A stretch of DNA of 64,000 nt from an uncultured Bacteroidota bacterium (GTDB lineage: Bacteria > Bacteroidota > Bacteroidia > Bacteroidales > P3), in assembly GCA_902776365.1 (NCBI GenBank), contig CACYPU010000001.1, positions 124,001 to 188,000 on the forward strand. Direction: 5' to 3'. The notes below the pieces were generated by a model. The model was not told the origin of the DNA and searched no databases. It worked only from the letters and a program-made list of their open reading frames with translations. Position numbers and translations under genes: made by a program. This document shows positions 4,840 to 61,953 of the stretch, one piece after another. Each line of letters begins with the position of its first letter. Position 1 is the stretch's first letter.

Positions 4840-4968
4840 TATTTATCGCGTTATTGCGTTATTTCGTTAGTGGCTGGCGCGTCAGCAATTGTACTGCGTA
4901 GCACTAACGCATTAACACATTAACGCATTTACGCATTCAAATTTACGCATTCACGCATTTACGCATTA
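4840..4968. repeat. paired-arm repeat element in the etfB-etfA spacer
   Basis: The spacer holds an arm of GTTATTGC-like units, a GC-rich core, and a second arm of GCATTAAC-like units that is an imperfect complement of the first. The core contains AGTGGCTGGCGCGTC, which recurs in the crt-hbd and sdhA-sdhB spacers. The second arm runs up to the etfB stop codon. Confidence 0.75.
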
Positions 4969-5754
4969 TTAAATGATATGTTTCTCTTTGAGCTTGTTGA
5001 CGATGATTTCGACGGCCTCTTCGGGGCTGACCTCGAAGGTCTGGCCGGCGGGCTTGAGCTGCTTGGGGAACGACTTGAAGACGCTCGTGGGCGAACCGGC
5101 CTTGCCGATATGCTCCTCGGGCACGTTGATGCGGTCGGCACCCCACACTTCGACTTCCTTGTCGAAGGCGGTGACGATGCCGCTGACGGTCATATAGCGG
5201 GGCTGCACGCTGGAGGCCAGGGCGGTGACGACGCAGGGAGCCTGCATCTCGAGAATCTGGTAGCCGTCCTCGAGCTGTTTCTTGATGGTGAAGGTCTTGG
5301 TGGCCTCGTTGTACTGGAGGTCCTCCATGTAGGAGACCTGCGGCAGGTCGAGGTGTTCGGCAATCTGGGGACCCACCTGGGCGGTGTCGCCGTCGATGGC
5401 CTGGCGGCCGGTGATGATGAGGTCGACATCCATGGTGCGCAGGGCGCCGGCGAGGGCGCTGCTGGTGGCCAGCGTATCGGCACCGCCGAGCTTGCGGTCG
5501 GTGAGCAGGATGGCGCGGTCGACACCCATGGCGAGGGCCTCGCGGAGGATGGCCTCGGCCTGGGGCAGACCCATGGTGATGACGGTGACGTGGGCACCGT
5601 ACTTGTCCTTCAGCTGCAGGGCGTATTCAAGGCCGCCCTTGTCGTCGGGGTTCATGATCGAGGGAACGCCCTCGCGGATGAGCGTGCCGGTCACGGGATT
5701 GATTTTCACCTCGGTGGTGTCCGGCACTTGCTTTATGCAAACTACAATGTTCAT
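4969..5754 (-). CDS. etfB: electron transfer flavoprotein beta subunit
   Basis: The 261-residue product starts MNIVVCIKQVPDTTEVKINP, the standard EtfB N-terminus, and has the family motif ITGRQAIDGDTAQVGPQIAE near residue 115, which lines the nucleotide site. EtfB binds AMP, or a second FAD in bifurcating ETFs, and docks with acyl-CoA dehydrogenase. Whether this pair bifurcates cannot be decided by eye, but the gene set (bcd, etfBA, with Rnf elsewhere in the window) is the one used for bifurcating crotonyl-CoA reduction. It lies between bcd and etfA, separated from each by a repeat-filled spacer. Confidence 0.95.
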   Translation of the reverse strand: MNIVVCIKQVPDTTEVKINPVTGTLIREGVPSIMNPDDKGGLEYALQLKDKYGAHVTVITMGLPQAEAILREALAMGVDRAILLTDRKLGGADTLATSSALAGALRTMDVDLIITGRQAIDGDTAQVGPQIAEHLDLPQVSYMEDLQYNEATKTFTIKKQLEDGYQILEMQAPCVVTALASSVQPRYMTVSGIVTAFDKEVEVWGADRINVPEEHIGKAGSPTSVFKSFPKQLKPAGQTFEVSPEEAVEIIVNKLKEKHII

Positions 5755-5756
5755 TC

Positions 5757-5879
5757 TTTCTTTGGGTTTAAGGGGTTTAAAGGGTTTAAAAGGTTTTAAA
5801 GGTGACAGGTCGATGGCCTCGAACCTTTTTAACCTTTCAGCGACCGAAGGGAGCGCAACCTTTTCAACCTTTTTAACTA
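5757..5879. repeat. paired-arm repeat element in the bcd-etfB spacer
   Basis: An arm of GGTTTAAA-like units and a complementary arm of AACCTTTT-like units flank a core that includes GGTGACAGGT and, at 5835-5856, a 22-base block with GCGACCGAAGGGAGCGC. Both blocks are repeated without change in the ridA-bcd spacer. The array starts at the bcd stop codon. Confidence 0.8.
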
Positions 5880-7019
5880 TTATTTAAACAGTTTTCCGGC
5901 AATCACCATGCGCTGCACTTCGCTGGTGCCTTCGTAAATCTCGGTGATCTTGGCGTCGCGCATCATGCGCTCGACGGGGTACTCTCGGGTGTAGCCGTAG
6001 CCGCCGTGGAACTGGACGGCCTTGGTGGTCACCTCCATAGCGGTCTCGGCGGCGAAGAGCTTGGCCATAGCGGCATCGGCAGAGTAGGGGATGCCGTGGT
6101 CTTTCTTGTAGTGGGCCGAGCGGCAGAGCAGACGGGCGGCCTGCACCTTGGTCTCGAGGTCGGCCATCTGGAACTGCGTGTTCTGGAACTGGCTGATGGA
6201 GCGGCCGAACTGCTTACGCTCCTTGGTGTATTTGACGGTCTCGTCCATAGCACCCTGGGCGATGCCGAGGGCCTGGCAGGCGATACCGATGCGGCCGCCG
6301 TCGAGGGTCTTCATGGCGAGGCCGAAGCCTTTGCCCAGCTGCCCCAGCTGACGGTCCTTCGGGATGCGGCAGTCCTCGAAGATAAGCTCAGTGGTGGCGC
6401 TGCCGCGGATACCCATTTTCTTCTCCTTTTTGCCGATGCTGAAGCCCGGGTCGGTTTTCTCGACGATGAAGGCGCTGATGCCCTTGGTGCCGAGGCTCTT
6501 GTCGGTCATGGCGATGATGATGAACACGTTGGCGTAGGAGCCGTTGGTGATGAAGATCTTGCTGCCGTTGAGCACCCAGCTGTCACCGTCCTCGACGGCG
6601 ATGGTCTGCTGGCCGGCGGCATCGGTACCGGCGTTGGGCTCGGTGAGGCCGAAGGCACCGATCCACTCGCCGCTGGCGAGCTTGGGCAGGTATTTCATCT
6701 TCTGCTCCTCGGTGCCGGCCTCAAGGATGGGGGCGCAGCAGAGGGAGGTGTGGGCCGACAGGATGACGCCTGTGGTGGCGCAGACGCGGCTGAGCTCCTC
6801 GACGGCCATGCCGTACATGATGTTGGTGCCGCCGGCGCCGCCGTACTGAGTGGGGATGGGGATGCCCATGAGGCCTATCTTGGCCATCTTCTGGACGGTC
6901 TCCATGGGGAAACGCTCCTCTTCGTCGACTTCGGCGGCGAGGGGCTTGACTTCCTTCTCTGCAAACTCGCGAATCATCTGCAGGAAGAGTTCTTCTTGTT
7001 TGGTGAAGCTAAAATCCAT
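5880..7019 (-). CDS. bcd: short-chain acyl-CoA (butyryl-CoA) dehydrogenase
   Basis: This 379-residue flavoprotein belongs to the acyl-CoA dehydrogenase family. It has the N-terminal helical domain, the FAD-binding segment (AFGLTEPNAGTDA) and the catalytic glutamate in IYEGTSEVQ near residue 363, the position used by short-chain enzymes. In anaerobes it reduces crotonyl-CoA to butyryl-CoA with electrons from EtfAB. It is cotranscribed with ridA upstream and etfB and etfA downstream. Together with crt and hbd at 27-29 kb it supplies three of the steps between acetoacetyl-CoA and butyryl-CoA. Substrate length is inferred from context and the Glu position. Confidence 0.93.
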   Translation of the reverse strand: MDFSFTKQEELFLQMIREFAEKEVKPLAAEVDEEERFPMETVQKMAKIGLMGIPIPTQYGGAGGTNIMYGMAVEELSRVCATTGVILSAHTSLCCAPILEAGTEEQKMKYLPKLASGEWIGAFGLTEPNAGTDAAGQQTIAVEDGDSWVLNGSKIFITNGSYANVFIIIAMTDKSLGTKGISAFIVEKTDPGFSIGKKEKKMGIRGSATTELIFEDCRIPKDRQLGQLGKGFGLAMKTLDGGRIGIACQALGIAQGAMDETVKYTKERKQFGRSISQFQNTQFQMADLETKVQAARLLCRSAHYKKDHGIPYSADAAMAKLFAAETAMEVTTKAVQFHGGYGYTREYPVERMMRDAKITEIYEGTSEVQRMVIAGKLFK

Positions 7020-7020
7020 T

Positions 7021-7139
7021 TATCTTGGGTTTAAGGGGTTTTAAAGGTTTAAAAGGTTTAAAAGGTGACAGGTTGCTTTAACCTTTTTAACCTTTCAGCG
7101 ACCGAAGGGAGCGCAACCTTTTTAACCTTTCTAACTTTT
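7021..7139. repeat. paired-arm repeat element in the ridA-bcd spacer
   Basis: This is a sister copy of the bcd-etfB element: GGTTTAAA-type arm, GGTGACAGGT, the same 22-base core at 7093-7114, and an AACCTTTT-type arm ending at the ridA stop codon. The arms differ in unit number and sequence while the core blocks are identical. Confidence 0.8.
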
Positions 7140-7514
<375 letters not shown>

Positions 7515-7730: not shown

Positions 7731-7737
7731 TGATAAA

Positions 7738-8984: not shown

Positions 8985-9058
8985 GGCGGGATAGCTCAGC
9001 TGGTTAGAGCGCTGGATTCATAACCCGGAGGTCATCAGTTCAAGTCTGATTCCCGCTA
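8985..9058 (+). tRNA. tRNA with CAU anticodon, probably elongator Met
   Basis: The sequence folds into a full cloverleaf: acceptor stem GGCGGGA with TCCCGCT (a G-U pair at 1-72), D-stem GCTC/GAGC, anticodon CAT at 9019-9021, and TTCAAGT T-loop closed by ATCAG/CTGAT. CCA is not encoded. The anticodon stem lacks the three G-C pairs typical of initiator tRNA, so an elongator Met tRNA is most likely; a lysidine-modified Ile tRNA cannot be excluded by eye. Position 31-39 is an A-C mismatch. Confidence 0.93.
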
Positions 9059-10282: not shown

Positions 10283-11344
10283 GTGGTTTACATTCACGTT
10301 CCATTCTGTCACCGCAAGTGTACCTATTGCGCCTTCTATTCGAAGCCTGTGGTCGGTAGCCAGTGGTCGGTGGCCAGTTACACCGATGCGCTTATAGAAG
10401 AGATGCGGTCGCGGTGTGGAGAACAGGCGCATCCTATCCGCACCGTCTATTTCGGCGGCGGTACTCCTTCGATATTGCCACTCGACGAGTTGGAGCGCAT
10501 TGTTAAAGCCCTGCACGAGTGCTTCGACCTCTCGCAGGTCGAGGAGGTAACCCTTGAGGCCAATCCTGAGGATTTGACTGTTGATTATCTGCAGGGTCTC
10601 AAGAGTTTAGGATTTGTCAATCGTCTTAGCATCGGCCTCCAGAGTCTCGATGACGGCATGCTGCGTCTCATCGGGCGCCGCCACACTGTAGTTCAGGCCC
10701 TGGCCGCCATTGAGAATGCTCATGCTACGGGTTTCCATAACCTTAGCGTTGACTTTATCTATGGGCTGCCGGTAAATTCTCAATTTTCAATTTTCAATTT
10801 TCAATTGGTTTCCCATGTTTCCGCCTATGCCCTCACGGTGGAGCCGGGGACGGCGTTGGCCGTGCAGGTGGAGCAGGGGAGGGTGGTGCTTCCCGACGAG
10901 GACGAGGTGGTGCGACAGTACTATACTCTACGTCAGCAGTTTGTAGAGCAGGGTCTCCGTCAGTATGAGATTAGCAACTTTGCCCGTCCGGGCTTTGAAT
11001 CGAAGCACAATAGTCGCTACTGGGACCGCACGCCCTATCTCGGTTTAGGGCCTGGCGCCCACAGTTTCGATGGTTTTCGTCGTCAATGGAACAGGCCCGA
11101 CGGCACATTTGAGGAAGAGACGCTCACCGAGGCCGACGCCTACAACGAACTCTTGATGACTGCCTTGCGCACTACGCGTGGCCTTGCCCTCGCGCAGGTG
11201 CCTGAGAAGTATAAAGAAAGGCTGCATCGGGGGATGCAACCTTATGTCGACTGTGGTTGGATGGTCAGGGGTGATGGTTCTTATAAGCCTACAGCAGAGG
11301 GTCTTCTTCATGCCGACGGCATCGCCGCCGCTCTCTTTGTTTGA
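10283..11344 (+). CDS. hemW: HemW-like radical SAM haem chaperone
   Basis: The radical SAM cluster is bound by C9, C13 and C16 (CHRKCTYC), followed by YFGGGTPSIL and, later, GLGPGAHSF and the HemN C-terminal region. HemW transfers haem; older annotation calls it oxygen-independent coproporphyrinogen oxidase. The start is GTG, directly after a repeat-like tract (GTAAGAACTGTTAAGAG). Two repeat-derived segments lie inside the gene: residues 23-32 (two copies of a 14-base unit) and residues 165-175 (three CAATTTT heptamers, giving QFSIFNFQL). The second stands where relatives have a longer helix. The frame is intact, and the core motifs are kept. Confidence 0.9.
   Translation: MVYIHVPFCHRKCTYCAFYSKPVVGSQWSVASYTDALIEEMRSRCGEQAHPIRTVYFGGGTPSILPLDELERIVKALHECFDLSQVEEVTLEANPEDLTVDYLQGLKSLGFVNRLSIGLQSLDDGMLRLIGRRHTVVQALAAIENAHATGFHNLSVDFIYGLPVNSQFSIFNFQLVSHVSAYALTVEPGTALAVQVEQGRVVLPDEDEVVRQYYTLRQQFVEQGLRQYEISNFARPGFESKHNSRYWDRTPYLGLGPGAHSFDGFRRQWNRPDGTFEEETLTEADAYNELLMTALRTTRGLALAQVPEKYKERLHRGMQPYVDCGWMVRGDGSYKPTAEGLLHADGIAAALFV
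10349..10379 (+). repeat. in-frame 14-base repeat in hemW
   Basis: GTGGTCGGTAGCCA is followed at once by GTGGTCGGTGGCCA, encoding VVGSQWSVAS in the loop after the radical SAM cysteines, a place that varies in length among homologues. Confidence 0.7.
10775..10807 (+). repeat. in-frame CAATTTT heptamer array in hemW
   Basis: Three and a half CAATTTT units encode FSIFNFQL. The same heptamer in the same reading register occurs in the SPOR gene and mltG. Confidence 0.8.
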
Positions 11345-11361: not shown

Positions 11362-11835
11362 TCAAAACTCAAATTCCAGGTTGTCGGGAGCGTATTCCTC
11401 AACGGCGGGCGCCCCGGGATTGATGTTGTCTTTGATGATGTAGCCTTTGTATACCTCTTTGATTTGCTGGAGGAAGGCGTAAGCTTCGAGGCGTGTGCGG
11501 AAGTCGCCGACTTTCACCTTGAAGTTGGGTTCGTCGTAGATGATATAGGCTTGCACCGAGGGATAGTCTAGTGCAAAGCGGTCACGCAGGTTGAAGGCAC
11601 TGGTTTTCGAGTTGGCGCCCGAGAAAGAGGCTATCTGCACGCGGAATCCCGGGATGGTCTTCACGCGGTTGTTGAATTCCACATGGCGATCCACCATGGC
11701 GCTGACGGTGACGTCGCCGGTGATGGTGAAACGGCTGCTCTGGGCGCTAGCCGAATTGAAAATTGAAAATTGAAAATTGAAAATGATGCTGGCACAGAGC
11801 ATCATTTTCAATGTTTTTATTGTTTTACTTTTCAT
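11362..11835 (-). CDS. secreted SPOR-domain protein
   Basis: The product is about 157 residues with a signal peptide (residues 1-32, ending ASAQ) and one SPOR domain from about residue 65 (PGFRVQIASFSG to KGYIIKDN). SPOR domains bind denuded glycan strands of septal peptidoglycan, so a periplasmic or outer-membrane role in envelope maintenance is likely. ATG 11835 is taken over a GTG two codons earlier. The hydrophobic part of the signal peptide (IIFNFQFSIFN) is encoded by a CAATTTT heptamer array. It faces hemW tail to tail with 17 bases between. Confidence 0.82.
   Translation of the reverse strand: MKSKTIKTLKMMLCASIIFNFQFSIFNSASAQSSRFTITGDVTVSAMVDRHVEFNNRVKTIPGFRVQIASFSGANSKTSAFNLRDRFALDYPSVQAYIIYDEPNFKVKVGDFRTRLEAYAFLQQIKEVYKGYIIKDNINPGAPAVEEYAPDNLEFEF
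11753..11784 (-). repeat. CAATTTT array encoding signal-peptide core
   Basis: On the minus strand four CAATTTT units in tandem encode the hydrophobic stretch of the SPOR protein signal peptide. Confidence 0.75.
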
Positions 11836-11859
11836 TTTCACTTTTCACATTTCACGTTC

Positions 11860-12913: not shown

Positions 12914-13792
12914 ATGACTCAACAAATCTTGATAGCGGTGATTGTCCTGGGCGTGATAGGCGCTTTCTTCGCCGTGGTGCTCTATTTTGTAGCCCAAAAA
13001 TTCAAGGTGGTCGAAGACCCACTCATTGACGAGATTGCCGAGGTTTTGCCTGGCGCCAACTGTGGTGGCTGCGGCAAGGCCGGCTGCCGTGCTTTTGCTG
13101 AGGCCTGTGTGGCACAGCATAGCCTGGAGGGTCTTCGTTGCGCCCCCGGTGGTGACCCTGTGGCGGCTAAGATTGCCGAACTCCTCGGCTGTGCCGTCGA
13201 GCAGGGCGAGCCTCAGGTGGCTGTGGTACGTTGCCATCCTGCCAACTGCGGCGAGAACCGCCGTTCGAATTATGATGGTCTCCGCAGTTGCGCCTTCGCG
13301 GCGACGGTCTATACTGGCGAGAATGGGTGCCCCTTCGGCTGCCTGGGCTGTGGCGACTGTGTGGCCGCCTGCCAGTTCGACGCCATCCACATGGATGCCG
13401 AGACTGGAACTCCGGTGGTTGACGAGGAGAAATGCACCGCCTGTGGCGCATGTGCCAAGGCCTGCCCGCGTCGCGTCATAGAGTTGCGCAACAAGGGCAA
13501 CAAGGGCCGTCGTGTCTATGTGCGCTGCATCAACAAGGAGAAGGGTGCCGTGGCTATGAAGACTTGCAAGAATGCCTGTATCGGTTGTGGCAAGTGCGCC
13601 AAGGTGTGCCCCTTCGAGGCCATCACGGTGACCGACAATGTGGCCTACATCGACTTCACCAAGTGCAAGGCTTGCCGCAAGTGCGTCACCGAGTGCCCCG
13701 TGCACGCCATCACCGACGTCAACTTCCCGGCTCCCGCCAAGAAGCCTGAGGCCCCGAAGCCCGCCGAGGAACCCCAGCCCGCAAACAACTAA
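12914..13792 (+). CDS. rnfB: Rnf complex subunit B, ferredoxin-type
   Basis: RnfB is the ferredoxin-accepting subunit of the Rnf ferredoxin:NAD+ oxidoreductase. The 292-residue protein has an N-terminal membrane helix (residues 4-27), the NCGGCGKAGC cluster motif, and four 4Fe-4S motifs (CPFGCLGCGDCVAAC, CTACGACAKAC, CIGCGKCAKVC, CKACRKCVTEC). The C-terminus is a Pro/Ala/Glu-rich tail. It is the first gene of the operon, as is usual in Bacteroidetes. A short ACACTAA array joins it to rnfC. Confidence 0.95.
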   Translation: MTQQILIAVIVLGVIGAFFAVVLYFVAQKFKVVEDPLIDEIAEVLPGANCGGCGKAGCRAFAEACVAQHSLEGLRCAPGGDPVAAKIAELLGCAVEQGEPQVAVVRCHPANCGENRRSNYDGLRSCAFAATVYTGENGCPFGCLGCGDCVAACQFDAIHMDAETGTPVVDEEKCTACGACAKACPRRVIELRNKGNKGRRVYVRCINKEKGAVAMKTCKNACIGCGKCAKVCPFEAITVTDNVAYIDFTKCKACRKCVTECPVHAITDVNFPAPAKKPEAPKPAEEPQPANN

Positions 13793-13819
13793 ACACTAAC
13801 CACTAAACACTGAACACTG
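13788..13819 (+). repeat. ACACTAA heptamer array in the rnfB-rnfC spacer
   Basis: The whole spacer consists of ACACTAA/ACACTGA units that begin in the rnfB stop codon and end at the rnfC ATG. The same unit fills the rnfD-rnfG spacer. Confidence 0.75.
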
Positions 13820-16230: not shown

Positions 16231-16262
16231 ACTAAACACTAAACACTTAACACTAAACACCG
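16230..16262 (+). repeat. ACACTAA heptamer array in the rnfD-rnfG spacer
   Basis: Units of ACACTAA and ACACTTA run from the rnfD stop codon to within a few bases of the rnfG start, matching the array between rnfB and rnfC. Confidence 0.75.
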
Positions 16263-23537: not shown

Positions 23538-24752
23538 ATGGACATTCAAACCCTGAAACAACGATACGACATCATCGGCAACGACCCCAAGCTGCTGATG
23601 GCCCTGAACAAGGCCATCCAGGTGGCTCCCACCAACCTCTCTATCCTCATCACGGGCGAGAGCGGCGTGGGCAAGGATGTCTTCTCGCGCATCATCCACG
23701 AGAATAGCATCCGCAAGCATGTGCGTCAAGGCCGTGGCCTCATCTCCGTCAACTGTGGCGCCATACCCGAGGGAACCATCGAGAGCGAGCTCTTCGGTCA
23801 TGTGAAAGGAGCCTTCACCGGCGCCGACCGCACCCGCAAAGGCTATTTCGAGGAAGCCGACGGCGGCACCATCTTTCTCGACGAAATCGGCGAGCTGCCT
23901 TTGGCCATGCAGGTCAAGCTGCTGCGTGTGCTCGAGAACGGCGAGATTATCCCCGTGGGTTCCTCCACTCCGCTGAAAATCGACGTCCGCGTGGTGTCCG
24001 CCACGAATGTGGACATCGTGAAGGCCGTGCGTGAAGGCCGCTTCCGCGAGGACCTCTACTACCGCCTGAACCAATTGTCGATTTACCTGCCGCCGCTGCG
24101 CGAACGCAAGGAGGATATCCCGCTGCTTTTCAGAAAATTCTCCTCCGATGTGGCGGAGAAATACCACATGCCGCCCATCGTGCTCACCGAGGATGCGCGC
24201 ACCATGCTGATGAACTACCCGTGGTACGGCAACGTCCGCGAGCTCAAGAACATCACCGAGCAGATTGCCGTCGTCGAGACCGCCCGCAGCATCACGCCCG
24301 ACATCCTGCAGAACTACCTCGCCTATATCCCGGCCGAGCGGATGCCCGCCATCATCCCCGAGGCGCAGGCACCAGCGGCAGCCAGCCAGATTACCGACCG
24401 TGAGCTGCTTCTCAAAGCACTCTCCATGGGGCAGATGATTAACGAGTTGCGTGGCGAAATCAACGACCTGCGCCAGATGGTCTCTCAGCTCACAGCCAAC
24501 AACGCCAACAATAACTCAAACTATCAACTACCCACTACCCACTACCCACTACCCACTCAGAACAACGAAGAAGAATTCATCTCCCCCGAAATCATCGAGG
24601 AGGAGTCCTTGGGTCTCGAAGACCGCGAGCGCCGCGCCATCATCCGTGCTCTCGAACACAGCCAGGGCAACCGCAAGCAGGCGGCCGCCGACCTCCACAT
24701 CTCCGAGCGCTCGCTCTATCGTAAACTCAAACAATACAATATAAGTGACTAG
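23538..24752 (+). CDS. sigma-54-dependent transcriptional activator
   Basis: The 404-residue protein has an AAA+ domain with Walker A (ITGESGVGKD), the sigma-54 contact motif GAFTGA, Walker B (GGTIFLDEIGE) and the sensor region (WYGNVREL), then a Fis-type helix-turn-helix at the C-terminus (GNRKQAAADLHISERSLYRKLKQY). There is no receiver or other sensory domain in front of the AAA+ domain, so its signal is unknown. A CCCACTA array in the linker between AAA+ and HTH encodes QLPTTHYPLPTQ. ATG 23538 is used; the open frame upstream runs into a GCACTCCCT-type repeat. Confidence 0.92.
   Translation: MDIQTLKQRYDIIGNDPKLLMALNKAIQVAPTNLSILITGESGVGKDVFSRIIHENSIRKHVRQGRGLISVNCGAIPEGTIESELFGHVKGAFTGADRTRKGYFEEADGGTIFLDEIGELPLAMQVKLLRVLENGEIIPVGSSTPLKIDVRVVSATNVDIVKAVREGRFREDLYYRLNQLSIYLPPLRERKEDIPLLFRKFSSDVAEKYHMPPIVLTEDARTMLMNYPWYGNVRELKNITEQIAVVETARSITPDILQNYLAYIPAERMPAIIPEAQAPAAASQITDRELLLKALSMGQMINELRGEINDLRQMVSQLTANNANNNSNYQLPTTHYPLPTQNNEEEFISPEIIEEESLGLEDRERRAIIRALEHSQGNRKQAAADLHISERSLYRKLKQYNISD
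24527..24558 (+). repeat. in-frame CCCACTA heptamer array in the sigma-54 activator
   Basis: Four CCCACTA units encode PTTHYPLPT in the interdomain linker. The same heptamer is found in miaA, cca and tcdA. Confidence 0.85.
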
Positions 24753-24776: not shown

Positions 24777-26012
24777 ATGAAGACTAACGACATACGCATT
24801 TCCCTCCCGGCTTCCAAGAGCATGAGCAATCGCTGGTTGATGATTAATCATCTCACTGGCTGTTTCTTCCGCATCAGCAAACCTTCCACTTCCGGCGACA
24901 CACGCCTGCTGCGGCGCCTCCTCAATCAAATCGAGAGCGAGAACTCCTCCCATGTCTACTACTGCAACAATGCCGGCTCTGTGGCACGCTTCCTGATGCC
25001 CCTGCTGGCCATCACCCCCGGCCACCATATCCTCACCGGCGACGACCGCCTCTGTCAGCGTCCCATGGCGCCGCTCATCGAGGCCCTCCGGCAGATGGGT
25101 CTGCGGGTGGAATGCACCGAGAAAGAGGGCTTCCTGCCTGTGCAGATACAAGGCAGTGTGCCCACGAAGCGCACCGTCTCCGTCGACCCACTCCTCAGCA
25201 GCCAGTTCGTCAGCTCCCTGCTCCTCATCGCTCCCCGCATGCCCGAAGGAATCTCCCTCACCATGACCCAGCGGCCTACCTCGCGACCCTACATCGAGAT
25301 GACCTGCGACATCCTCCGTCAGGCAGGCATCGAAGCCCGGCGCTCCTCCAACGGCCGCACCTACTATGTGAACCACCTCGCCAGCAAGCCCAAGTCCGCC
25401 GCTGTGTCCATTGAGCGCGACTGGTCGTCGGCTTCCTATTTCTACACCATGGCCCTTCTGCGCCCCGACCTCCGCATCCGCTTGCTGGGACTCCAGCTCG
25501 ACTCCTGCCAGGGCGACAGCGCCACCGACAACTTCTTCCGCCTCCTCGGCGTCACCTCCACCGAGGTGCGCTCGCCCTATCGCTCCGCCGGACGCTCCAT
25601 CACCATCCAGGGAGGCGGCGACTGCCCCAAGAGCCTGCAGTTCAACTGCATCGACTGCCCCGACTTGGTGCCCACCTTCGCTGTGGCCGCCGCCGCCGCC
25701 AGGGTCAAGGCCACCCTCAAGGGGGTTAGCAACATTGCCCTCAAGGAAAGCGACCGCATGCAGGCCATCAGCACCGAACTCCAGCGTATGGGTGGCAAGG
25801 TCAACTGCACGGCAGAGGAGATGGTCATCCTCCCCTCCGAACTCCACCCCGTGGAGCCCGTCCACACCTGGGGCGACCACCGCATCGCTATGGCTTTCGC
25901 ACCCCTCAAACTACGCTTCCCCGACCTCCAAATCGAGAATCCCGAGGTGGTCGAGAAATCCTTCCCGGAATTCTGGGAACAGTTCGACCTCGTCCTCCAG
26001 AATAAGCAATGA
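24777..26012 (+). CDS. aroA: 3-phosphoshikimate 1-carboxyvinyltransferase (EPSP synthase)
   Basis: AroA joins phosphoenolpyruvate to shikimate-3-phosphate in aromatic amino-acid synthesis. The 411-residue protein shows LPASKSMSNRWLMI near the start, NNAGSVARF, DRLCQRPMAPLIEAL, SSQFVSSLLL, SRPYIEMT, RDWSSASYFY and the late LKESDRMQAI and TWGDHRIAMAFA motifs, so both halves of the inside-out barrel are complete. ATG 24777 gives the family N-terminus; six upstream codons in the open frame are not needed. Its stop overlaps the miaA start by four bases. Confidence 0.95.
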   Translation: MKTNDIRISLPASKSMSNRWLMINHLTGCFFRISKPSTSGDTRLLRRLLNQIESENSSHVYYCNNAGSVARFLMPLLAITPGHHILTGDDRLCQRPMAPLIEALRQMGLRVECTEKEGFLPVQIQGSVPTKRTVSVDPLLSSQFVSSLLLIAPRMPEGISLTMTQRPTSRPYIEMTCDILRQAGIEARRSSNGRTYYVNHLASKPKSAAVSIERDWSSASYFYTMALLRPDLRIRLLGLQLDSCQGDSATDNFFRLLGVTSTEVRSPYRSAGRSITIQGGGDCPKSLQFNCIDCPDLVPTFAVAAAAARVKATLKGVSNIALKESDRMQAISTELQRMGGKVNCTAEEMVILPSELHPVEPVHTWGDHRIAMAFAPLKLRFPDLQIENPEVVEKSFPEFWEQFDLVLQNKQ

Positions 26013-26878
26013 CGGAACAAATGCTACCCACGACCCACTGCCCACTACCCACTAAAAAACTATTAATCATCACAGGCCCCACAGCCTCGGGCAAGACCGC
26101 CGAGGCCGTCGCCCTGGCCCGTGAGAGGAACACCGAGATACTCTCCTGCGACTCGCGCCAGTTCTACCGTGAGATGCGTATCGGCGTGGCTCGCCCCACC
26201 GACGACGAACTCGCCGCCGCCACACACCATTTCATCGCCTGCCGTCCCGTTACCGAGCCTTACAATATCTCCGACTATGAGCGCGACGCCATGAAGGTGG
26301 CGCAAAAGCTCTTCGCCGAGGGACGCGACACCGTCATCGCCGTCGGCGGCAGCGGCCTCTATGTCGACGCCCTGCGTCAGGGCGTCACCGCCATGCCCGA
26401 CCCCACACCCGAGCTCCGCGCACGCCTCCAACAGATGCCCCTCGAGGAGAAACGTGCACAGCTGCAATTGCTTGACCCTGACTACTATCGACGCGTCGAC
26501 CTCCGCAACCCCGTGCGCCTCCAACGCGCCCTCGAGGTGTGCTACATGACCGGCCGCCCCTATTCGCAAGTCATCGCGGAATCGAAACCCTCTGAGCGAC
26601 CCTTCGACATCGAGGTCCGCGTGACCCAGATTCCTCATTCCGACCTCCGGCTTCGTATCGACCGCCGCGTCGACCAGATGATGGCCGACGGCCTCCTCGA
26701 CGAGGTCGAAAGCCTCCTTCCTTACCGCCACCTCTCCACCCTCCGCACCGTCGGCTACCGCGAACTCTTCCCCGTCCTCGACGGTACCAAGAAACTTGAA
26801 GATGCAGTGGCCGAAATCAAGCTAAATACCTGGCACTATGCACGTAAGCAGCTCACCTGGTGCCGCCGTTACCTCTGA
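26009..26878 (+). CDS. miaA: tRNA dimethylallyltransferase
   Basis: MiaA adds a dimethylallyl group to A37 of tRNAs that read codons starting with U. The 289-residue protein has the P-loop ITGPTASGKT at residues 21-30, SCDSRQFYREM, the AVGGSGLYVDAL motif and the late TVGYRELFPVLDG and YARKQLTWCRR motifs. The first 15 residues (MTEQMLPTTHCPLPT) are mostly encoded by a CCCACTA array and are absent from normal MiaA, which starts a few residues before the P-loop strand. Start codon overlap with aroA as ATGA indicates coupling. Confidence 0.95.
   Translation: MTEQMLPTTHCPLPTKKLLIITGPTASGKTAEAVALARERNTEILSCDSRQFYREMRIGVARPTDDELAAATHHFIACRPVTEPYNISDYERDAMKVAQKLFAEGRDTVIAVGGSGLYVDALRQGVTAMPDPTPELRARLQQMPLEEKRAQLQLLDPDYYRRVDLRNPVRLQRALEVCYMTGRPYSQVIAESKPSERPFDIEVRVTQIPHSDLRLRIDRRVDQMMADGLLDEVESLLPYRHLSTLRTVGYRELFPVLDGTKKLEDAVAEIKLNTWHYARKQLTWCRRYL
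26024..26054 (+). repeat. in-frame CCCACTA array at the start of miaA
   Basis: Four slightly diverged units (CCCACGA, CCCACTG, CCCACTA, CCCACTA) encode the added N-terminal LPTTHCPLPT. Confidence 0.8.
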
Positions 26879-26915
26879 TTTGCAGGTCCGCGTATTCCAT
26901 TGATTCCAAAGCATT

Positions 26916-26975
26916 TCAACCTTTGTTCTACCATTGTTCTTCCATTGTTCTTTCATTTAAATGAAAGAACAATGG
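26916..26975. repeat. CCATTGTTCTT repeats ending in a 34-base perfect palindrome
   Basis: Three CCATTGTTCTT-like units lead into a perfect, loop-free inverted repeat at 26942-26975 centred on TTTAAA. No T run follows on either strand, so it is not a normal terminator. It lies between the convergent miaA and hbd genes, and its structure matches the paired-arm elements elsewhere. Confidence 0.7.
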
Positions 26976-27012
26976 TAAAACAGACTGAGAATGAATGAAA
27001 TAAGGGAGAATA

Positions 27013-27920: not shown

Positions 27921-28026
27921 AATGTTTGATTGTTTGAATGTTTGATTGTCTGAGTATTTTTGTTGCAAGATTGTTCGACGCGCCAGCCACTCAAGCATTA
28001 ACGCAATCAAGCAATCAAGCAATAAC
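27921..28026. repeat. paired-arm repeat element in the crt-hbd spacer
   Basis: An arm of TTTGATTG units and a second arm of CAATCAAG units, nearly its complement, flank a core. The core has, on the minus strand at 27976-27991, AGTGGCTGGCGCGTCG, matching the cores of the etfB-etfA and sdhA-sdhB elements. The array reaches the crt stop codon. Confidence 0.78.
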
Positions 28027-30461: not shown

Positions 30462-30655
30462 TGCGTTAATGTGTTAATGTGTTAATGCGTTAATGTGTTA
30501 ATGTGTTAATGTGTTAATGTGTTAATGCGTTAATGTGTTAATGCGTTAATGTGTTAATGCGTTAATGTGTTAATGCGTTAATGTGTTAATGCGTTAATGT
30601 GTTAATGCGTTTTAATGCGTAAATGTGTTAATGCGTTAGTGTGTGAATGTGTTAG
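30458..30655. repeat. about 24 tandem TTAATGCG/TTAATGTG octamers
   Basis: The whole spacer between the MORN lipoprotein stop and the cca start is one tract of eight-base units, mostly alternating TTAATGCG and TTAATGTG, all in one orientation. Variation (AAATGTG, TTAGTGTG, one TT insertion) is concentrated at the lipoprotein end. It is the longest uninterrupted array in the window. Confidence 0.9.
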
Positions 30656-31230
30656 TATTGGTTGGTGCCGAGGAGGTTGCCTTCTTTGTCAAAGAAGGAC
30701 CATTCGCCGGTACGTTGTCCCAGGGTGTATTGGCCGGTGATGCTGGGAGTGCCGTTTTCGTTGTAGACGGTGTAGGGACCGTTTTCGATGCCATCGGTGA
30801 AGTGGGTCTCGGATTGTATCTTTCCGGTGTTCATGTCGTAGGCCGTCCAGAGGCCGTTGCGCTGGCCATTTTTTAGGTCGCCTTCGGCGAGTTTCTCCAT
30901 ATTGCTCCAGAAGGTGAGCATGGATTGCTGCCCTTTGTGGTGGAAGATGACCTCTTTGGGCTGGCCGTTGGCGGTGTCGGTGAAGACCGAAAGGGAGTCG
31001 CAGCCAGGGACGAGGGGCTCGCCGAGGGCGTTGTTGAACTCCCATGTGGTATCGGTGCCCTGGATGGTGCGGCTGACGATGATGTCGCCTTTCGGGGAGC
31101 GGAACTCGACGGTGCCGTCGTTGGAGGCAGTGCTATTGCTGCCGCAGGAGGCGAGAAGGAGGACTAGAAGGAGGGAGTGAAAGGGAGTGAAAGGGAGTGA
31201 AAGGGAGTGAAAGGACAAATGTTTTTTCAT
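30652..31230 (-). CDS. lipoprotein with MORN-like repeats
   Basis: The 192-residue product has a lipoprotein signal ending in LLLASCG, then a domain with repeated MORN-variant motifs (EGDLKNGQRNGLWTAYD, THFTDGIENGPYTVYNENG, QYTLGQRTGEWSFFDKEG). Proteins of this YwqK type are common in Bacteroidetes and probably sit on the periplasmic face of the outer membrane; their function is unknown. The signal peptide (SFHSLSLPFTPFHSL) is encoded by a CTTTCACTCC decamer array. It lies between uvrC and cca in a minus-strand run. Confidence 0.78.
   Translation of the reverse strand: MKKHLSFHSLSLPFTPFHSLLLVLLLASCGSNSTASNDGTVEFRSPKGDIIVSRTIQGTDTTWEFNNALGEPLVPGCDSLSVFTDTANGQPKEVIFHHKGQQSMLTFWSNMEKLAEGDLKNGQRNGLWTAYDMNTGKIQSETHFTDGIENGPYTVYNENGTPSITGQYTLGQRTGEWSFFDKEGNLLGTNQY
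31171..31214 (-). repeat. decamer array encoding a lipoprotein signal peptide
   Basis: Four CTTTCACTCC units on the minus strand encode the hydrophobic part of the MORN lipoprotein signal. Confidence 0.75.
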
Positions 31231-33642: not shown

Positions 33643-33668
33643 AGTTCTTAGTTCTTAGTTCTTAGTTT
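33642..33668. repeat. TTCTTAG heptamer array at the asd-gldH junction
   Basis: TTCTTAG is repeated three times across the last codons of asd and the five-base spacer to the gldH-like gene, so it contributes the C-terminal LRTKN of Asd. Confidence 0.65.
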
Positions 33669-34664: not shown

Positions 34665-34709
34665 ACTTTAAACTTTAAACCTTAAACTTTAAATTTTAAC
34701 CGTTAACCG
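34664..34709. repeat. ACTTTAA array between the T9SS cargo gene and asd
   Basis: The spacer consists of CTTTAAA/CCTTAAA heptamers and then two CCGTTAA units, from the cargo stop codon to the asd start. Confidence 0.7.
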
Positions 34710-37405: not shown

Positions 37406-38440
37406 TTATCTGATGCCACGGGCATTGAGGACATGGTGGAAGGCTGCCGCGTTGCGGTTGTGCTCCGCAAGGCTCGCCGCGAAGCGGTGCGTGCCATCCA
37501 TTTTCTCGCTGGCACAGAAGTAGAGGTATTCCGTCTCCGGCGCGTTGACGACCGCCTCGACCGAGGCGTCGGAGGGGAGGCAGATGGGTGCCGGCGGCAG
37601 CCCCGTGTGGAGGTAGGTATTGAAGGGACTTTCCGTGGTGAGGTGGCGGTTGAGGATGCGCTGGAGCGTGAAGTCCCCGACGGCATATTTCACCGTCGGG
37701 TCGGCCTGCAGCGGCATCCCGCGCCGCAGCCGGTTCAGGTAGACGCTGGCAATGAGTGGCTTCTCGGGGTTATAGTTCGACTCTTCCTCGACGATGGAGG
37801 CCAAGATGATTATTTCTTTGGGAGTGCAAGGAGTGCCATGGAGTGCAGGGGAGTGCAAGACAATTGTTTCCGTCTGGTCTATTGTCCCAGCACTCCCTTG
37901 CACTCCCTTGCACTCCCTTGCACTCCAAAAAATTTCATACTCTTTCTTCATGCGTTGCATGAACTGCTCGGGGGTAACTGTCCAGTAGAATTCATAGGTG
38001 TTGGGACGTATAAGGTAGAAGCTATCGAGCGAAATGTCGAAGTCGTCGCACATCAGTTTGCTGTTGAGATATTCGTTGAGTTGCTGAGGGGTGCGGAATT
38101 TCCCTATGGTGAGTCGTACCGGGTCCTGCTGCCCGTTGCGGAAACGCCGCACGAGAGTGAAACTCTTGGAGTGGGGTTCCACCACATAGGAGCCAGCGCG
38201 GACTTTTGAATTGAGAATTGAGAATTGAGAATTGAAAATTTTTGTGTTCAGCCCCTCTTCGAGGATGCCGAGACTCTGGAGGGTGTCGACGAGGGCTTCC
38301 TGGGAGGTCCCTTCCGGGATGTAGATGCGTATAGGGGTGGTATTGTGCGTCTTGGAGCAGAAGAAGAGGCTGCCGGCGACGGCCCCCAGAACGAGCAGCA
38401 CCCCCACGATGATTAGTATGATTATTGTCTTTCGCTTCAT
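37406..38440 (-). CDS. mltG: endolytic murein transglycosylase
   Basis: MltG cuts nascent peptidoglycan strands and sets their length. The 344-residue protein has one N-terminal membrane helix (residues 5-27), a LysM-like region, and the YceG catalytic domain (ILASIVEEES with the catalytic Glu, ASVYLNRLRRGMPLQADPTVKYA, GLPPAPICLPSDASVEAV, YLYFCASEKMDGTHRF). Two repeat insertions are in frame: residues 66-78 (CAATTCT/CAATTTT heptamers, IFNSQFSILNS) and residues 171-207, a complete paired-arm element. The start overlaps the acetyltransferase stop by four bases. Confidence 0.93.
   Translation of the reverse strand: MKRKTIIILIIVGVLLVLGAVAGSLFFCSKTHNTTPIRIYIPEGTSQEALVDTLQSLGILEEGLNTKIFNSQFSILNSKVRAGSYVVEPHSKSFTLVRRFRNGQQDPVRLTIGKFRTPQQLNEYLNSKLMCDDFDISLDSFYLIRPNTYEFYWTVTPEQFMQRMKKEYEIFWSARECKGVQGSAGTIDQTETIVLHSPALHGTPCTPKEIIILASIVEEESNYNPEKPLIASVYLNRLRRGMPLQADPTVKYAVGDFTLQRILNRHLTTESPFNTYLHTGLPPAPICLPSDASVEAVVNAPETEYLYFCASEKMDGTHRFAASLAEHNRNAAAFHHVLNARGIR
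37819..37926 (-). repeat. complete paired-arm element in frame inside mltG
   Basis: One arm has three to four AGTGCAAGGG decamers and the other CACTCCCTTG decamers. Next to the loop, GACAAT and ATTGTC are exact complements around 16 bases. The 108-base element encodes about 36 residues just before the catalytic motif, and the frame is kept. Confidence 0.85.
38208..38240 (-). repeat. in-frame CAATTCT/CAATTTT array in mltG
   Basis: Four heptamers on the minus strand encode IFNSQFSILNS, the same register as the hemW and SPOR arrays. Confidence 0.8.
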
Positions 38441-38820
38441 TTCAGTATCTTTTGCATGCGGATGGAATCAACATATTGCTCCTTGACGACGAGCCAATCG
38501 CGGAAAAGGCCGCACTGGCTGTAGCCAGCCTTGGCGAAGAGCGCGATGGAGGCGGCGTTTGGGGCGGCGATATCGGCAAATAAAGTGTGTATTTGATAGT
38601 TGTCTGTGGAGAGCTCTTCTAATGCATGGAGCATAGCTAGGGCGTACCCTTGGCGCCGGAACTCCCGTGCCACCATAATGCCCACCGCCGCTCGGCGGTT
38701 AAGAGGGTCGTAGCCATAAAGGTCGACGGCACCGTAAGGCAATGCATACAACCTCAGGCTGCCGCTCGACAGCGACGCCCCCTCTTCTGCCACCAGTGTT
38801 ATGTTTTTTTTACCTTTCAT
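38437..38820 (-). CDS. GNAT-family acetyltransferase, N-terminally short
   Basis: The 127-residue protein has the GNAT acetyl-CoA motif (GIMVAREFRRQGYALAMLHAL, with R/Q-x-x-G-x-G/A) and a C-terminal AALFAKAGY-like segment (SIALFAKAGYSQCGLF). Family members of this kind are usually 160-175 residues; here the first strand and helix are missing. The ATG and first codons (MKGKK) merge into the heptamer array that follows recG. The substrate is unknown. Either the gene has lost its N-terminus to the array, or it is a short variant. Confidence 0.75.
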   Translation of the reverse strand: MKGKKNITLVAEEGASLSSGSLRLYALPYGAVDLYGYDPLNRRAAVGIMVAREFRRQGYALAMLHALEELSTDNYQIHTLFADIAAPNAASIALFAKAGYSQCGLFRDWLVVKEQYVDSIRMQKILK

Positions 38821-38860
38821 TTTTTTTACCTTTCACCTTTCATCTTTCACCTTTCACCTT
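38811..38860. repeat. TTTCACC heptamer array between recG and the acetyltransferase gene
   Basis: CTTTCAC/CTTTCAT units occupy the spacer, take in the recG stop codon at one end and the first codons of the acetyltransferase at the other. Confidence 0.8.
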
Positions 38861-48312: not shown

Positions 48313-49863
48313 ATGAAGAAATTTTTTAATAAACGGATTGTGTTGGGAATGGTGTTAGTTTTCACCTTTCACCTTTCACCTTTCACCTCCGTTAGGGCAC
48401 AGATGCAGGCGGTGTTTGCCTACAGCACGTTCTATGCACAGACGGCCGACATGCCTTATGTGGAGACCTACCTCTCCTTCGACGCATGGACCATGCAGTT
48501 CGTCCAGATGGACAACGGTTCCTATCGCGCCACCGCCGAGGTGCTTACGGTGCTCAAACAAAGCGACTCTGTGTGCTATGTGAAGAAATACGACCTCAAC
48601 AGCCCCACGGTGGCTTCTCTCGATGAACTCAACTTCAACTTCCTCGACGTGCAGCGTTTCTCGGTCAAGAATGGTATTTACGACCTCGAAATCACTCTGC
48701 GCGACAAGGGCAGCGACCGGCCCGCGTCGACGGTGACAGAGAAGTTGGTGGTGAACTACGACAAAGCCCATCCCGCGATGTCGAGCCTCCAGCTTATGTC
48801 GTCGGCCACGCCGACCCAGAAGGAGAACATCCTCTCGCGTGGCGGCTACGACATGGAGCCTTATGTGAGTGATTTCTACCCCGAGCAGGTGGCGCAGCTG
48901 CACTACTACTTCGAGGTGTATAATATCGATCAGGAGTTGGGCCAGAAACCGTTCATCGTCATGGCTTTTATCGAACAGCAGGAGACGGGAATCCGTGTGG
49001 ACGGACTGCAGACGGTGGTTCGTAAGAACAGTTCCTCATTAGTGCCTGTCTACGGCAGCCTTGACATCGCACAGCTCTCTTCGGGCAACTACAACCTTGT
49101 TGTGGAGCTTCGCAACAAGGACAACCAGTTGATGCTCTACAAGAAGGTGCCGTTTTTCCGCTCGAATCCGGGTGTGATGGGAGCGGAACTGAGCGACTTC
49201 GCGACGACCTTCGCCGGCCGTTATACCAACGAGGACCAGCTGAATGTCTATCTGGATGCCCTCTATCCGTTGGCTTCCAACCAGGAGCGCACTGTGGCAA
49301 GCGAACTCATACGCCGTCCGGGTCTCGAAGAGAAGCAGGCCTTCCTCTACCGCTTTTGGCAGGTACGCTACCCCATGAGCGCTGAAGCTGAATGGCTGAA
49401 ATACAAAGAACGTGTGGATTATGTGCAGGCCACTTTCAGCTACCCCCTTACCCAGGGTATCCATACCGACCGTGGTCGTGTCTATCTGCAGTATGGTCCT
49501 CCCGACTTTGTGAGGGACGAGAAGAATTTTGTTTCGGTGAGCAAATTGGGTACCACTTTCAAAGGCTCTACCGAGACCATGCAGACTCGCGGCACCATCA
49601 GCAACGACGAGATGACCAACCCTTCGCAGGGACATATCTACTATCTGCCCTACCAGCTCTGGCGTTACAACAAACTGCCCACCGACGACCCCGACCGTGT
49701 GTTCCTGTTCTGGGACGAGCATCGTAGCGGCTACTACACGTTGCTTAACAGCAACGCCCGCGGCGAGGTGCAGGACCCCCTCTGGGAGCGCCGCCTCAGC
49801 CGCCAGCAGATTGGCGAGAACATGGTGGGTGAAGTGGGGGAACAGTTCAACAGGGGATACTAG
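48313..49863 (+). CDS. GWxTD-domain secreted protein
   Basis: The 516-residue protein has a signal peptide (FTFHLSPFTSVRAQ) and a C-terminal GWxTD domain (TDRGRVYLQYGPPDFVRD, YLPYQLWRYNKLP, VFLFWDEH, YTLLNSNARGEVQDPLWERR), a conserved fold of unknown role in Bacteroidetes and Acidobacteria. The N-terminal half is beta-rich and may be Ig-like. The signal peptide is encoded by TTTCACC heptamers. It is followed by an acyltransferase gene after 18 bases. Confidence 0.85.
   Translation: MKKFFNKRIVLGMVLVFTFHLSPFTSVRAQMQAVFAYSTFYAQTADMPYVETYLSFDAWTMQFVQMDNGSYRATAEVLTVLKQSDSVCYVKKYDLNSPTVASLDELNFNFLDVQRFSVKNGIYDLEITLRDKGSDRPASTVTEKLVVNYDKAHPAMSSLQLMSSATPTQKENILSRGGYDMEPYVSDFYPEQVAQLHYYFEVYNIDQELGQKPFIVMAFIEQQETGIRVDGLQTVVRKNSSSLVPVYGSLDIAQLSSGNYNLVVELRNKDNQLMLYKKVPFFRSNPGVMGAELSDFATTFAGRYTNEDQLNVYLDALYPLASNQERTVASELIRRPGLEEKQAFLYRFWQVRYPMSAEAEWLKYKERVDYVQATFSYPLTQGIHTDRGRVYLQYGPPDFVRDEKNFVSVSKLGTTFKGSTETMQTRGTISNDEMTNPSQGHIYYLPYQLWRYNKLPTDDPDRVFLFWDEHRSGYYTLLNSNARGEVQDPLWERRLSRQQIGENMVGEVGEQFNRGY
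48359..48390 (+). repeat. TTTCACC array encoding a signal peptide
   Basis: Four TTTCACC units encode TFHLSPFT in the GWxTD protein signal. The same heptamer lies between recG and the acetyltransferase gene. Confidence 0.8.
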
Positions 49864-59951: not shown

Positions 59952-60025
59952 TTTTTTTTAATAATACAAAAACATGTTTGCCCTGTTTCCTGCCGTTTTG
60001 GGATGGCAATCTCTGTGGGAAATAG

Positions 60026-60991: not shown

Positions 60992-61035
60992 AATTTTGTT
61001 TTTTTTGTTTTATTTGAGCTTTAAATTTCAGTTTG

Positions 61036-61043
61036 CAAAATTA
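61036..61043 (-). promoter_or_regulatory. -7 box of the efflux transporter gene
   Basis: TAATTTTG on the minus strand about 45 bases before the start; no clear -33 box. Confidence 0.4.
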
Positions 61044-61095
61044 CGAACATTTCCTATGACGGACACCTCACCATTGTTGGTGATTGATGGCGGAA

Positions 61096-61857
61096 TCAAT
61101 CTTCCCTGCGGTCTCGCCCGAAAGCCTGTGCTATCCAGCAACGGTTGAGTCTGGCGATGTTCTGGCGTTTGATTTGCTTTGGGCATTCGGCCTCGCAGGC
61201 ATAGGTGTTGGTGCAGCCGCCGAAGCCCAGTTCATCCATCTTGCATACCATCTTCTTGACGCGGTCGGCGGCTTCGGGCTTGCCTTGGGGCAGTAGGGCG
61301 AGGTGGCTCACCTTGGCACCGACGAAGAGCATTGCGCTGGCGTTCTTACAGGCTGCCACACAGGCGCCACAGCCGATGCAGGCGGCGGCATCCATGGACT
61401 GGTCTGCCTTGTGCTTTGGAATGAGGATGTTGTTGGCGTCGGGCACGCCGCCGGTGGTGGCGCTGATGTAGCCGCCGGCCTGGATAATCTTGTCGAAGGC
61501 GGTGCGGTCGACCACGAGATCCTTGATGATGGGGAAGGCTTTGGCACGCCACGGCTCCACCCAGATCTCGTCGCCGTCGTGGAAGTGGCGCATGTGGAGC
61601 TGGCAGGTGGTGACGCCGTCGTCGTTGCCATGGGGACGGCCGTTGATATAGAGGCCGCACATGCCGCAGATGCCCTCGCGGCAGTCGTTGTCGAAGCAGA
61701 CAGGGTGGGCTATCTTGTCGTTGATGAGTTTTTCATTGAGCTGGTCGAGCATCTCGAGGAACGAGCAGTCGGCGCTGATGTTGTCAATCTCGTAGGTCTC
61801 GAAGTGCCCCTTGGCGCGGGCGTTCTCCTGGCGCCAGATATGTAGTGTGAATTTCAT
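61096..61857 (-). CDS. sdhB: succinate dehydrogenase/fumarate reductase iron-sulfur subunit
   Basis: The 253-residue protein has the 2Fe-2S motif [10 protein letters not shown], the [13 protein letters not shown] motif and the late [17 protein letters not shown] motif for the 4Fe-4S and 3Fe-4S clusters. Of the b-type (SdhCAB) kind, it passes electrons between the flavoprotein and a dihaem membrane anchor. In anaerobic Bacteroidales the complex runs as a menaquinol:fumarate reductase. sdhA lies upstream, separated by a paired-arm repeat spacer. Confidence 0.95.
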
Positions 61858-61867
61858 CTTATCGAAT

Positions 61868-61953
61868 GTGTTATTGTGTTATTGCGTTATTGCGTTAGTG
61901 TTTTGTCGCGTCAGCCACTTACACATTAACACATTAACGCATTAACGCATTAT
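61868..61953. repeat. paired-arm repeat element in the sdhA-sdhB spacer
   Basis: An arm of GTTATTGC octamers and an arm of GCATTAAC octamers, complementary at about seven of eight positions per unit, flank a short core. On the minus strand this core (61905-61919) reads AGTGGCTGACGCGAC. The array reaches into the sdhA stop codon. Confidence 0.82.

Follow-up and report, generated by a model that had tools for sequence, protein, structure and literature searches.

A 64,000-nucleotide stretch of the genome of an uncultured Bacteroidales bacterium (the window; C1:124001-188000) is rich in arrays of short tandem units. A substantial minority of these arrays are the arms of palindromic elements, and one such element, 76 bp long with arms of CCCACTA-type heptamers, lies in frame inside conserved genes here and in related species. 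We suggest, with a probability of roughly 0.6, that two linked layers are involved: local heptamer-like arrays, and palindromic elements that are copied to scattered sites and spread as hairpin DNA. The observation of the arrays, made in a preliminary description of the window, is confirmed and is larger than first noted. The source genome (G000; 2.23 Mb, 18 contigs, completeness estimate 89.65%) has as its closest named relatives uncultured Bacteroidales from the rumen (the RUG, RGIG and UBA sets); Candidatus Colimorpha is more distant. Below, G-labels denote genomes and L-labels denote loci of relatives, viral stretches and others.

Arrays were scored with a detector covering periods 5-16 (score at least 13) against 20 dinucleotide-preserving shuffles. 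The window yielded 31 arrays, compared with none in 19 of the shuffles and one in the other, in agreement with the more than thirty sites first claimed; Tandem Repeats Finder (TRF) returned 65 overlapping rows. At a score of at least 14, periods 7, 8, 9, 10 and 11 were represented by 12, 4, 2, 2 and 4 arrays, respectively, and all 20 shuffles by none; the unit lengths of 7-10 originally described were recovered, and period 11 proved common too. A larger sample of 464 kb of the source genome, with gene calls made in this analysis, contained 191 arrays (4.1 per 10 kb), from which we extrapolate about 900 in the whole genome if the rest resembles the sample. Period 7 accounted for 92 of them, followed by 9 (23), 11 (21), 8 (17), 14 (11), 10 (10) and 16 (9), with 8 arrays of other periods. 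The genome-wide occurrence of distinct families at unlinked sites was borne out, AAAGGTG forming 15 arrays in the sample, ACCCACT and AAAATTG 12 each and AAAAATG 9; in the whole source genome, (CCCACTA)3 matched 18 times at 16 places (reversed control, 0). Within the 464 kb, 161 14-mers recurred at five or more places, and all but three of the best 80 of these 161 were, by reading, array units or array plus border. The 14-mer TGCAAAGATACGAA, repeated at 14 places, is no array and resembles the Bacteroidota promoter motif. The units are also compositionally skewed: in 76 of the 92 heptamer arrays one strand of the unit uses only three letters, G or C being missing, compared with 25% (genomic) and 44% (intergenic) of random 7-mers. 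Co-directional spacers were the densest location (88 arrays, 19.1 per 10 kb), with 9 arrays in convergent spacers (10.2 per 10 kb), 12 in divergent spacers (7.7 per 10 kb), 72 in genes (1.9 per 10 kb) and 10 at gene edges. Units run head-to-tail without spacers between them, and the unique spacers of constant size that mark CRISPR arrays were not found.

Not all sites are single arrays: several are the two arms of one inverted repeat. An inverted arm lay nearby (score at least 12) for 42 of 183 arrays, compared with 6 of 183 in a control with the array complemented, and an independent 9-mer test on 163 arrays found 36 reverse complements, 14 direct copies, and 8 and 5 in two controls. This left 33 non-redundant paired elements, ten of them in called genes and seven of those ten outside the CCCACTA family. 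Two forms are prominent among them: 11-mer palindromes, which have loops of 2-8 nt and lie in spacers that are either convergent or co-directional, and elements whose arms have other periods and enclose loops of 13-64 nt. The borders recur as well, GGAGTGC arrays often ending at GACAAATG or GACAATA with the opposite arm beginning after TATTGTC, and CCCACTA arrays often starting at ATG or GTG followed by CTACCC. In some cases the pairing is backed by DNA folding, with z scores of -8.49 for the pair in mltG, -4.71 at window position 26915 and -3.26 at 5764. A GC-rich sequence, GGCTGGCGCGTC, was tried as one core of all families and rejected: it gave 31 matches with at most one mismatch vs 14 in a reversed control, so its matches outside a few array sites are largely chance. 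The loop pattern GGRACAARTGCTAC, searched in a set of 120 genomes of the genus, matched four times here and once in each of six others, near control level.

The CCCACTA element is a 76-bp palindrome of four imperfect heptamers, a 16-nt loop and four heptamers. In G012 the left arm is stereotyped in many copies (AGTGGAT AGTGGGG AGTGTGT AGTGGAT) and the right arm consists of four CCCACTA-type units. With a search pattern that fixes length and frame, 44 copies align gap-free with identical ends and the same arm-loop-arm form, while most flanks differ. A structure-only search with no frame requirement, in 861 kb of two genomes, found 15 full copies, ten of them within an open reading frame (ORF) 200 aa or longer (seven of the eight copies in G012 and three of the seven in the source genome). 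One copy folded as DNA gave a z score of -6.86, with none of 200 shuffles as good, and arm pairing is kept, 24 of 32 pairs being intact in at least 36 of 40 copies. The target-site duplication that would point to a miniature inverted-repeat transposable element (MITE) showed no clear excess at the 44 copies, the best offset (3 nt) being seen in 4 copies vs 0.8 expected.

The element is translated in one frame, giving a peptide of about VDSGECVVDSSRGQVLPTTHYPLPT. The imperfect arm has lost the TAG from the unit in which it would be read in frame, and other units retain an out-of-frame TAG; by our own reading of the copies, the antisense strand of a typical copy has TAG in all frames, and one of six frames is open. 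The same imperfect left arm, compatible with that frame, is found at many loci. The 25-residue peptide matched in 21 of 119 genomes searched in the genus (E <= 0.01), with 35 matches in G012, 26 in the source genome and 23 in G125. Across the order (393 genomes in 206 genera, including one other member of the genus and three genomes of another genus of the family), the source genome was the sole match at E <= 0.001. In the genus search, 59 of 62 rows at E <= 1e-6 were stop-free within open frames of at least 252 aa, a share that is biased upward because stops lower the score. Carriage of the peptide by phages or plasmids was rejected, as phages gave no match and plasmids one, at E = 2. Viral contigs of unlike composition contain bare CCCACTA arrays in 16 stretches (L147-L162), some directly before a start codon and some mixed with other xxCACTA units; the element form was not seen in the printed parts of these (CCCACTA)3 stretches.

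The genes that carry in-frame elements encode unrelated conserved proteins. Host naming covered 59 ORFs, 50 of which were scanned (45 against NCBIfam, 5 against Pfam); NCBIfam gave no match at E <= 1e-10 for eight of the 45, several ORFs end at a locus edge, several matches fall below the NCBI cut-off and some names are family-level. With that reading, the hosts include synthetases and metabolic enzymes (IleS, LeuS, ValS, NrdD, DapF, dihydroorotase, RdgB, ThyA and GalE), proteins acting on DNA (RecG, UvrA, UvrC, RadA, a RarA-like ATPase, and UvrD-like and PIF1-like helicases) and on RNA (TruA, TrmB, MiaA and an RlmI-like methyltransferase), as well as MurC/Mpl-like and LplA-like ligases and ManC-like, LacZ-type, RapZ-domain and amidohydrolase proteins. 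Sequence alignment to solved structures places the inserts of ThyA, IleS and RadA in gaps between conserved stretches: the ThyA insert of G037 lies between FQFYV and the GRLSCQLYQRSAD stretch, and the IleS insert directly before WTTTPWTLP. In UvrC of G012 the insert lies between YRTCD and RPCM, and it is missing from the window UvrC and 19 other aligned orthologues. The early claim that arrays in genes keep the frame held, the frame being open in the genes compared and some relatives having no insert. A different insert, reading about LTPGPSPNGEG, is present several times in UvrA of G012 (C7:18572 region, L266:18050-19999); a palindromic 14-mer found at 10 places in 397 kb of that genome, CTCCGATTGGAGAG, is perhaps part of it.

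Comparison of orthologous sites within the genus gave a divided answer to whether the repeats are active or inherited. Several in-gene copies share their site between two or three species (flanks judged by eye), and these we take to be inherited: those of RadA (G012, G125), RecG (G112, G031), dihydroorotase (G012, G125, G037), a hexosaminidase-like protein (G000, G125, G035), a MurL-like protein (G058, G000), a radical-SAM protein (G012, G031) and a peptidase-like protein (G000, G058). Spacer arrays, in contrast, differ between species. Five spacers around uvrC were compared in up to nine relatives. The spacer before asd (array at window 34665-34706) holds CTTTAAA units in the window, TTGATAGG in L002, AATTGAA in L019 and GGTTTAA in L039, with little or nothing in the six other relatives (none in L003, L004 and L006). 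The spacer at 30460-30654 is filled by about 24 AATGTGTT/AATGCGTT units, against 3 in L001 and none in L002-L006 or any other relative compared. As unit type or number differs between relatives at these two sites, the compared spacers turn over faster than species split.

Some solo CCCACTA arrays appear, on comparison with relatives, to be decayed elements. The case is clear in the CCA tRNA nucleotidyltransferase gene, where the window has a remnant (29502-29561, minus strand; VVSSTGGDMLPTTHYPLPT; peptide search E 1.1e-4) and G112 (L335) has a full element, VGSGQCVVCSTEDDMLPTTHYPLPT, at the matching position. It is likely in miaA, whose 5′ end in the window (26009-26054, plus strand) is made of the element: the protein start MTEQMLPTTHCPLPT corresponds to the loop and right arm, with a loop remnant GGAACAAATG, it is lacking in L001, L004, L006 and L039, and a full element lies near the MiaA start in G012. 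In mltG, a full GGAGTGC palindromic element (37820-37926, minus strand) sits in frame and is not present in L001 or L003. These three comparisons suggest that solo in-gene arrays are at least partly element remains.

The arrays are a feature of the genus. Their density across 59 genus genomes, surveyed at the mutS locus and, where present, the uvrC locus, was 0-5.7 per 10 kb, whereas twelve genomes from twelve other families of the order had 4 arrays in 180 kb in total; as each genus genome contributed 4-84 kb, the density tests are weak. Several candidate drivers were tried against this survey and rejected. Loss of SbcCD, a hairpin nuclease, as a permissive cause seemed plausible from its apparent absence in the closest relatives, but density was unlinked to it (27 with, 32 without; p 0.90). 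Loss of MutS was rejected, MutS1 scoring above cut-off in 54 of 59 genomes, and reverse transcriptase (present in 25 of 59) showed no association with density in what is a weak test (p 0.17). The distribution of SbcCD in the genus is itself patchy, with sbcD or sbcC scoring strongly in 27 of 59 genomes, sometimes beside a MutS-like gene.

Together, these results are consistent with the following two-layer scheme. Heptamer-like arrays of several families, of the short tandemly repeated repetitive (STRR) or long simple sequence repeat (LSSR) kind, would form in place, vary in length there and be replaced from species to species. Some are assembled as palindromic elements comprising an array, a loop (conserved in some families) and an inverted array, and the 76-bp element would have been copied to scattered sites with no clear target-site duplication. 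The arrays and their families, the inverted pairing, the fixed form of the element, its in-frame positions and the shared and unshared sites are direct observations. The left-arm changes keep one of six frames open, so that copies landing in that frame in a protein loop could be tolerated and would then stay in frame for long, as Rickettsia palindromic elements (RPEs) do. We infer that copies spread as single-stranded hairpin DNA through template switching at replication forks, with no dedicated transposase; slippage may afterwards adjust unit number, and selection would filter for stop-free frames. A bolder form of this proposal, which we hold only tentatively and think rather doubtful, treats the hairpin itself as the mobile entity: self-spreading DNA hairpins with tandem three-letter heptamer arms, copied by enzyme-free template switching, with one stop-free family translated in essential proteins. 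If true, such a class would unite the cyanobacterial STRR heptamers and the coding palindromes of Rickettsia as one process.

Several observations weigh against the two-layer scheme. At the threshold used, 141 of 183 arrays have no inverted partner, and at the paired sites 4843 (z -0.64) and 27921 (z -0.21) the single-strand fold is no better than in shuffles. The UvrC insert of G012 also replaces a few native codons, which makes that insertion not clean. The density test is noisy, G012 having no array in its 20-kb test locus vs 2.3 per 10 kb in 397 kb. With one genome per species, presence and absence are seen between species and no insertion was caught in the act. Finally, the bare arrays without palindrome in unrelated-looking viral contigs suggest that the CCCACTA unit can arise independently or travel. 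This last point also speaks for local slippage alone, by which every array would grow in place from a chance seed and units would recur through polymerase preference, as do the strong bias of units to three letters, the multi-unit super-periods (a 16-mer at window 30460 and a 21-mer near C1:320313) and the variation from 3 to about 24 units at the former site. Slippage cannot, however, produce the conserved loops or borders and fixed ends that CCCACTA and GGAGTGC arrays show at unlinked sites, which contradicts it for the palindromic families, nor does it fit the frame-compatible left arm found at many loci; as the whole explanation we regard it as unlikely.

Much the same standing, in our view, belongs to movement of the palindromic elements in trans by a transposase, either of the Y1 type that accompanies repetitive extragenic palindromic (REP) sequences, the REP-associated tyrosine transposase (RAYT), for which such a role has been proposed, or another. 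Y1 domains occur in 40 of the 59 genomes of the genus, and REPs are reported in replication and repair genes (PMC3733652), in keeping with the inserts of UvrA, UvrC, RadA, RecG and the RarA-like gene here. But in the source genome Y1 is represented by one weak, partial match (31.6 bits), G009 has arrays without Y1 or reverse transcriptase, and Y1 as a driver showed no association with density (p 0.41; again a weak test). No RAYT linkage was found either: at four Y1 loci (three in G012, one in the source genome) no palindromic element lay within 1.5-3.2 kb on either side, and one of the four has a solo array 1.7 kb off. Hairpin template switching is favoured over a transposase by the lack of a clear target duplication, of a density link and of any palindrome at these loci. 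Selection of the arrays for the RNA structures that they form, be it as terminators, as mRNA stabilisers or as regulators, would suit the 11-mer palindromes with loops of 2-8 nt that are common in convergent spacers, where seven of eight tested arrays are paired, and the strong folds of some; yet close relatives have no arrays in the same spacers, placement in unrelated enzymes makes no obvious regulatory sense, and an Rfam scan of the window gave nothing but one tRNA gene (8985-9058), so that we judge it improbable. An assembly artefact is barely credible: all 80 named loci found are metagenome-assembled genomes or uncultured-bacterium assemblies, but the same elements stand at matching gene positions in different species and frames are open across the insert.

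The remaining window arrays illustrate the same range of forms, and the genes adjoining the arrays include uvrC, topA, miaA, mltG and the CCA tRNA nucleotidyltransferase gene. In a co-directional spacer (4843-4968), GCGTTATT / AACGCATT arrays flank the core TGGCGCGTCAGC as inverted arms, and similar cores lie between other arrays of the source genome (C1:151977, 185903, 404615 and 441868). Inverted GGGTTTAAA / AACCTTTTT arrays occupy a spacer at 5764-5878, with a second copy, GGTTTAAAA / AACCTTTTT, at 7028-7142; CAGCGACCGAAGGGAGCGC is common to both. A CAATTTT array (10775-10806) was found by the detector and TRF, and an AATTGAA array with an inverted partner (11754-11854) lies at the 5′ end of a predicted gene. 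Two ACACTAA arrays (13783-13818 and 16231-16260) fill short spacers as far as the next start codon; together with the spacer at 30460 they bear out the description of spacers filled from stop to start codon. The convergent spacer at 26915-26982 holds an 11-mer palindrome, (TTGTTCTTCCA)n, with a 2-nt loop, and TGTTTGAT / GCAATCAA arrays are inverted around the core GACGCGCCAGCC at 27921-28023, a spacer with no array in L001 or L039. Further spacer sites are a TTTCACC array (38804-38860), TGTGTTAT / ACACATTA arrays inverted around TTTTGTCGCGTCAGCC (61867-61952) and a TTCTTAG array covering the end of asd and the spacer after it (33638-33667), where L003, L010 and L019 have different units.

Within genes, a CCCACTA array (NYQLPTTHYPLPTQN; 24527-24557, plus strand) lies in a sigma-54-type regulator gene, and the closest relative, L001, has a comparable stretch at that site. 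The CCA tRNA nucleotidyltransferase gene also has a GAGTGACT array (30239-30275), in a loop where L019 has a similar repeat-like insert, and mltG an AATTGA array (NTKIFNSQFSILNSKV; 38208-38240, minus strand) that is similar in L001, L003 and L004 and replaced by different sequence in other relatives. Arrays also recur in apparent signal-peptide coding regions (judged by eye): AGGGAGTGAA (31172-31214, minus strand) and AAAATGA (33596-33629, minus strand) arrays in predicted lipoproteins, the former stopping at a border, GGACAAATG, that recurs at other sites, and a TTTCACC array (48360-48388, plus strand) at the 5′ end of a GWxTD-domain ORF (48313-49863). Elsewhere in the source genome, arrays in such regions were seen at C1:13241, 45789, 261204 and 310655; TTTCACC in these regions translates as SPFTFHL.

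In the papers compared, in-frame selfish palindromes are known above all from Rickettsiales, apart from scattered intragenic REPs. The rumen bacteria are a separate, dense case: more than 20 host genes could be named or assigned to a family, among them genes for aminoacyl-tRNA synthetases, DNA-repair enzymes and thymidylate synthase. With 120 genus genomes and empty sites at orthologous positions, the birth and decay of inserts, and their tolerance by proteins, become measurable. If palindrome arms and heptamer arrays share one copying process, the question of how STRR-type repeats spread would have an answer that can be tested.

In an open-access literature search we found neither the combination described here nor a paper containing the unit or peptide letters. 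Like the STRR heptamers of cyanobacteria and LSSRs built of heptamers, the arrays here consist of tandem units of about 7 nt (92 of 191 have period 7) and are dispersed and over-represented in spacers. Heptamer arrays are reported from cyanobacteria (GGGGA(C/T)T in Nostoc), Xanthomonas (GGGAATC), Beggiatoaceae (TAACTGA) and five Bacteroidetes (PMC4679880, PMC4692102), and TAACTGA repeats also occur inside some ORFs (PMC4679880). They share with our arrays the heptamer unit, a chiefly intergenic location, some inverted arrangements and some occurrence in ORFs, but have one dominant unit where we find many units plus defined palindromic elements. The view in the preliminary description that no such account was known in Bacteroidales does not stand, as the TAACTGA arrays in five Bacteroidetes include two sets in Paludibacter propionicigenes, a member of that order (PMC4679880). 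Its likening of the arrays to cyanobacterial heptamer repeats was apt, including the P6b stem of a tRNA-Leu intron, which pairs two heptamers (PMC4476775): both have tandem heptamers as two stem arms and multi-unit insertions, whereas here the repeats are genome-wide, with conserved loops, dispersed copies of fixed form and in-frame protein insertion. Borg tandem repeats likewise evolve fast and lie in spacers and genes (PMC9879509), but their units in ORFs are divisible by three, whereas heptamers stand in ORFs here; a general satellite survey was also consulted (PMC6749651).

The statement that the arrays match no known insertion sequence, MITE, REP or CRISPR pattern fails as regards palindromic repeats, since a substantial minority of arrays are palindrome arms and one family behaves like RPEs inserted in frame. 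REPs and bacterial interspersed mosaic elements (GTAG- and CGTC-tagged) are likewise palindromic, of high copy number and partly intragenic, many of the intragenic REPs lying in replication and repair genes (PMC3733652); they differ in being 20-40 bp long and ending in a tag, the GTAG types also having RAYT transposases, compared with 76 bp and tandem arms here. RPEs insert in frame in genes (PMC10969869, PMC3767692). Together with their Wolbachia counterparts (WPEs), they comprise several palindromic families, lie in frame in unrelated conserved genes and in some cases stand at sites common to related species, as here; solvent-exposed positions are reported for them, and the ThyA and IleS inserts lie between neighbouring conserved stretches in our alignments. 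The CCCACTA element differs in length (76 bp vs 100-150 bp), in its tandem-heptamer arms, in sequence and in phylum, the hosts being rumen Bacteroidales rather than intracellular Rickettsiales, and the two are likened by form and position. By that analogy, the CCCACTA element appears to work like a Rickettsia palindromic element with STRR-like heptamer arms.

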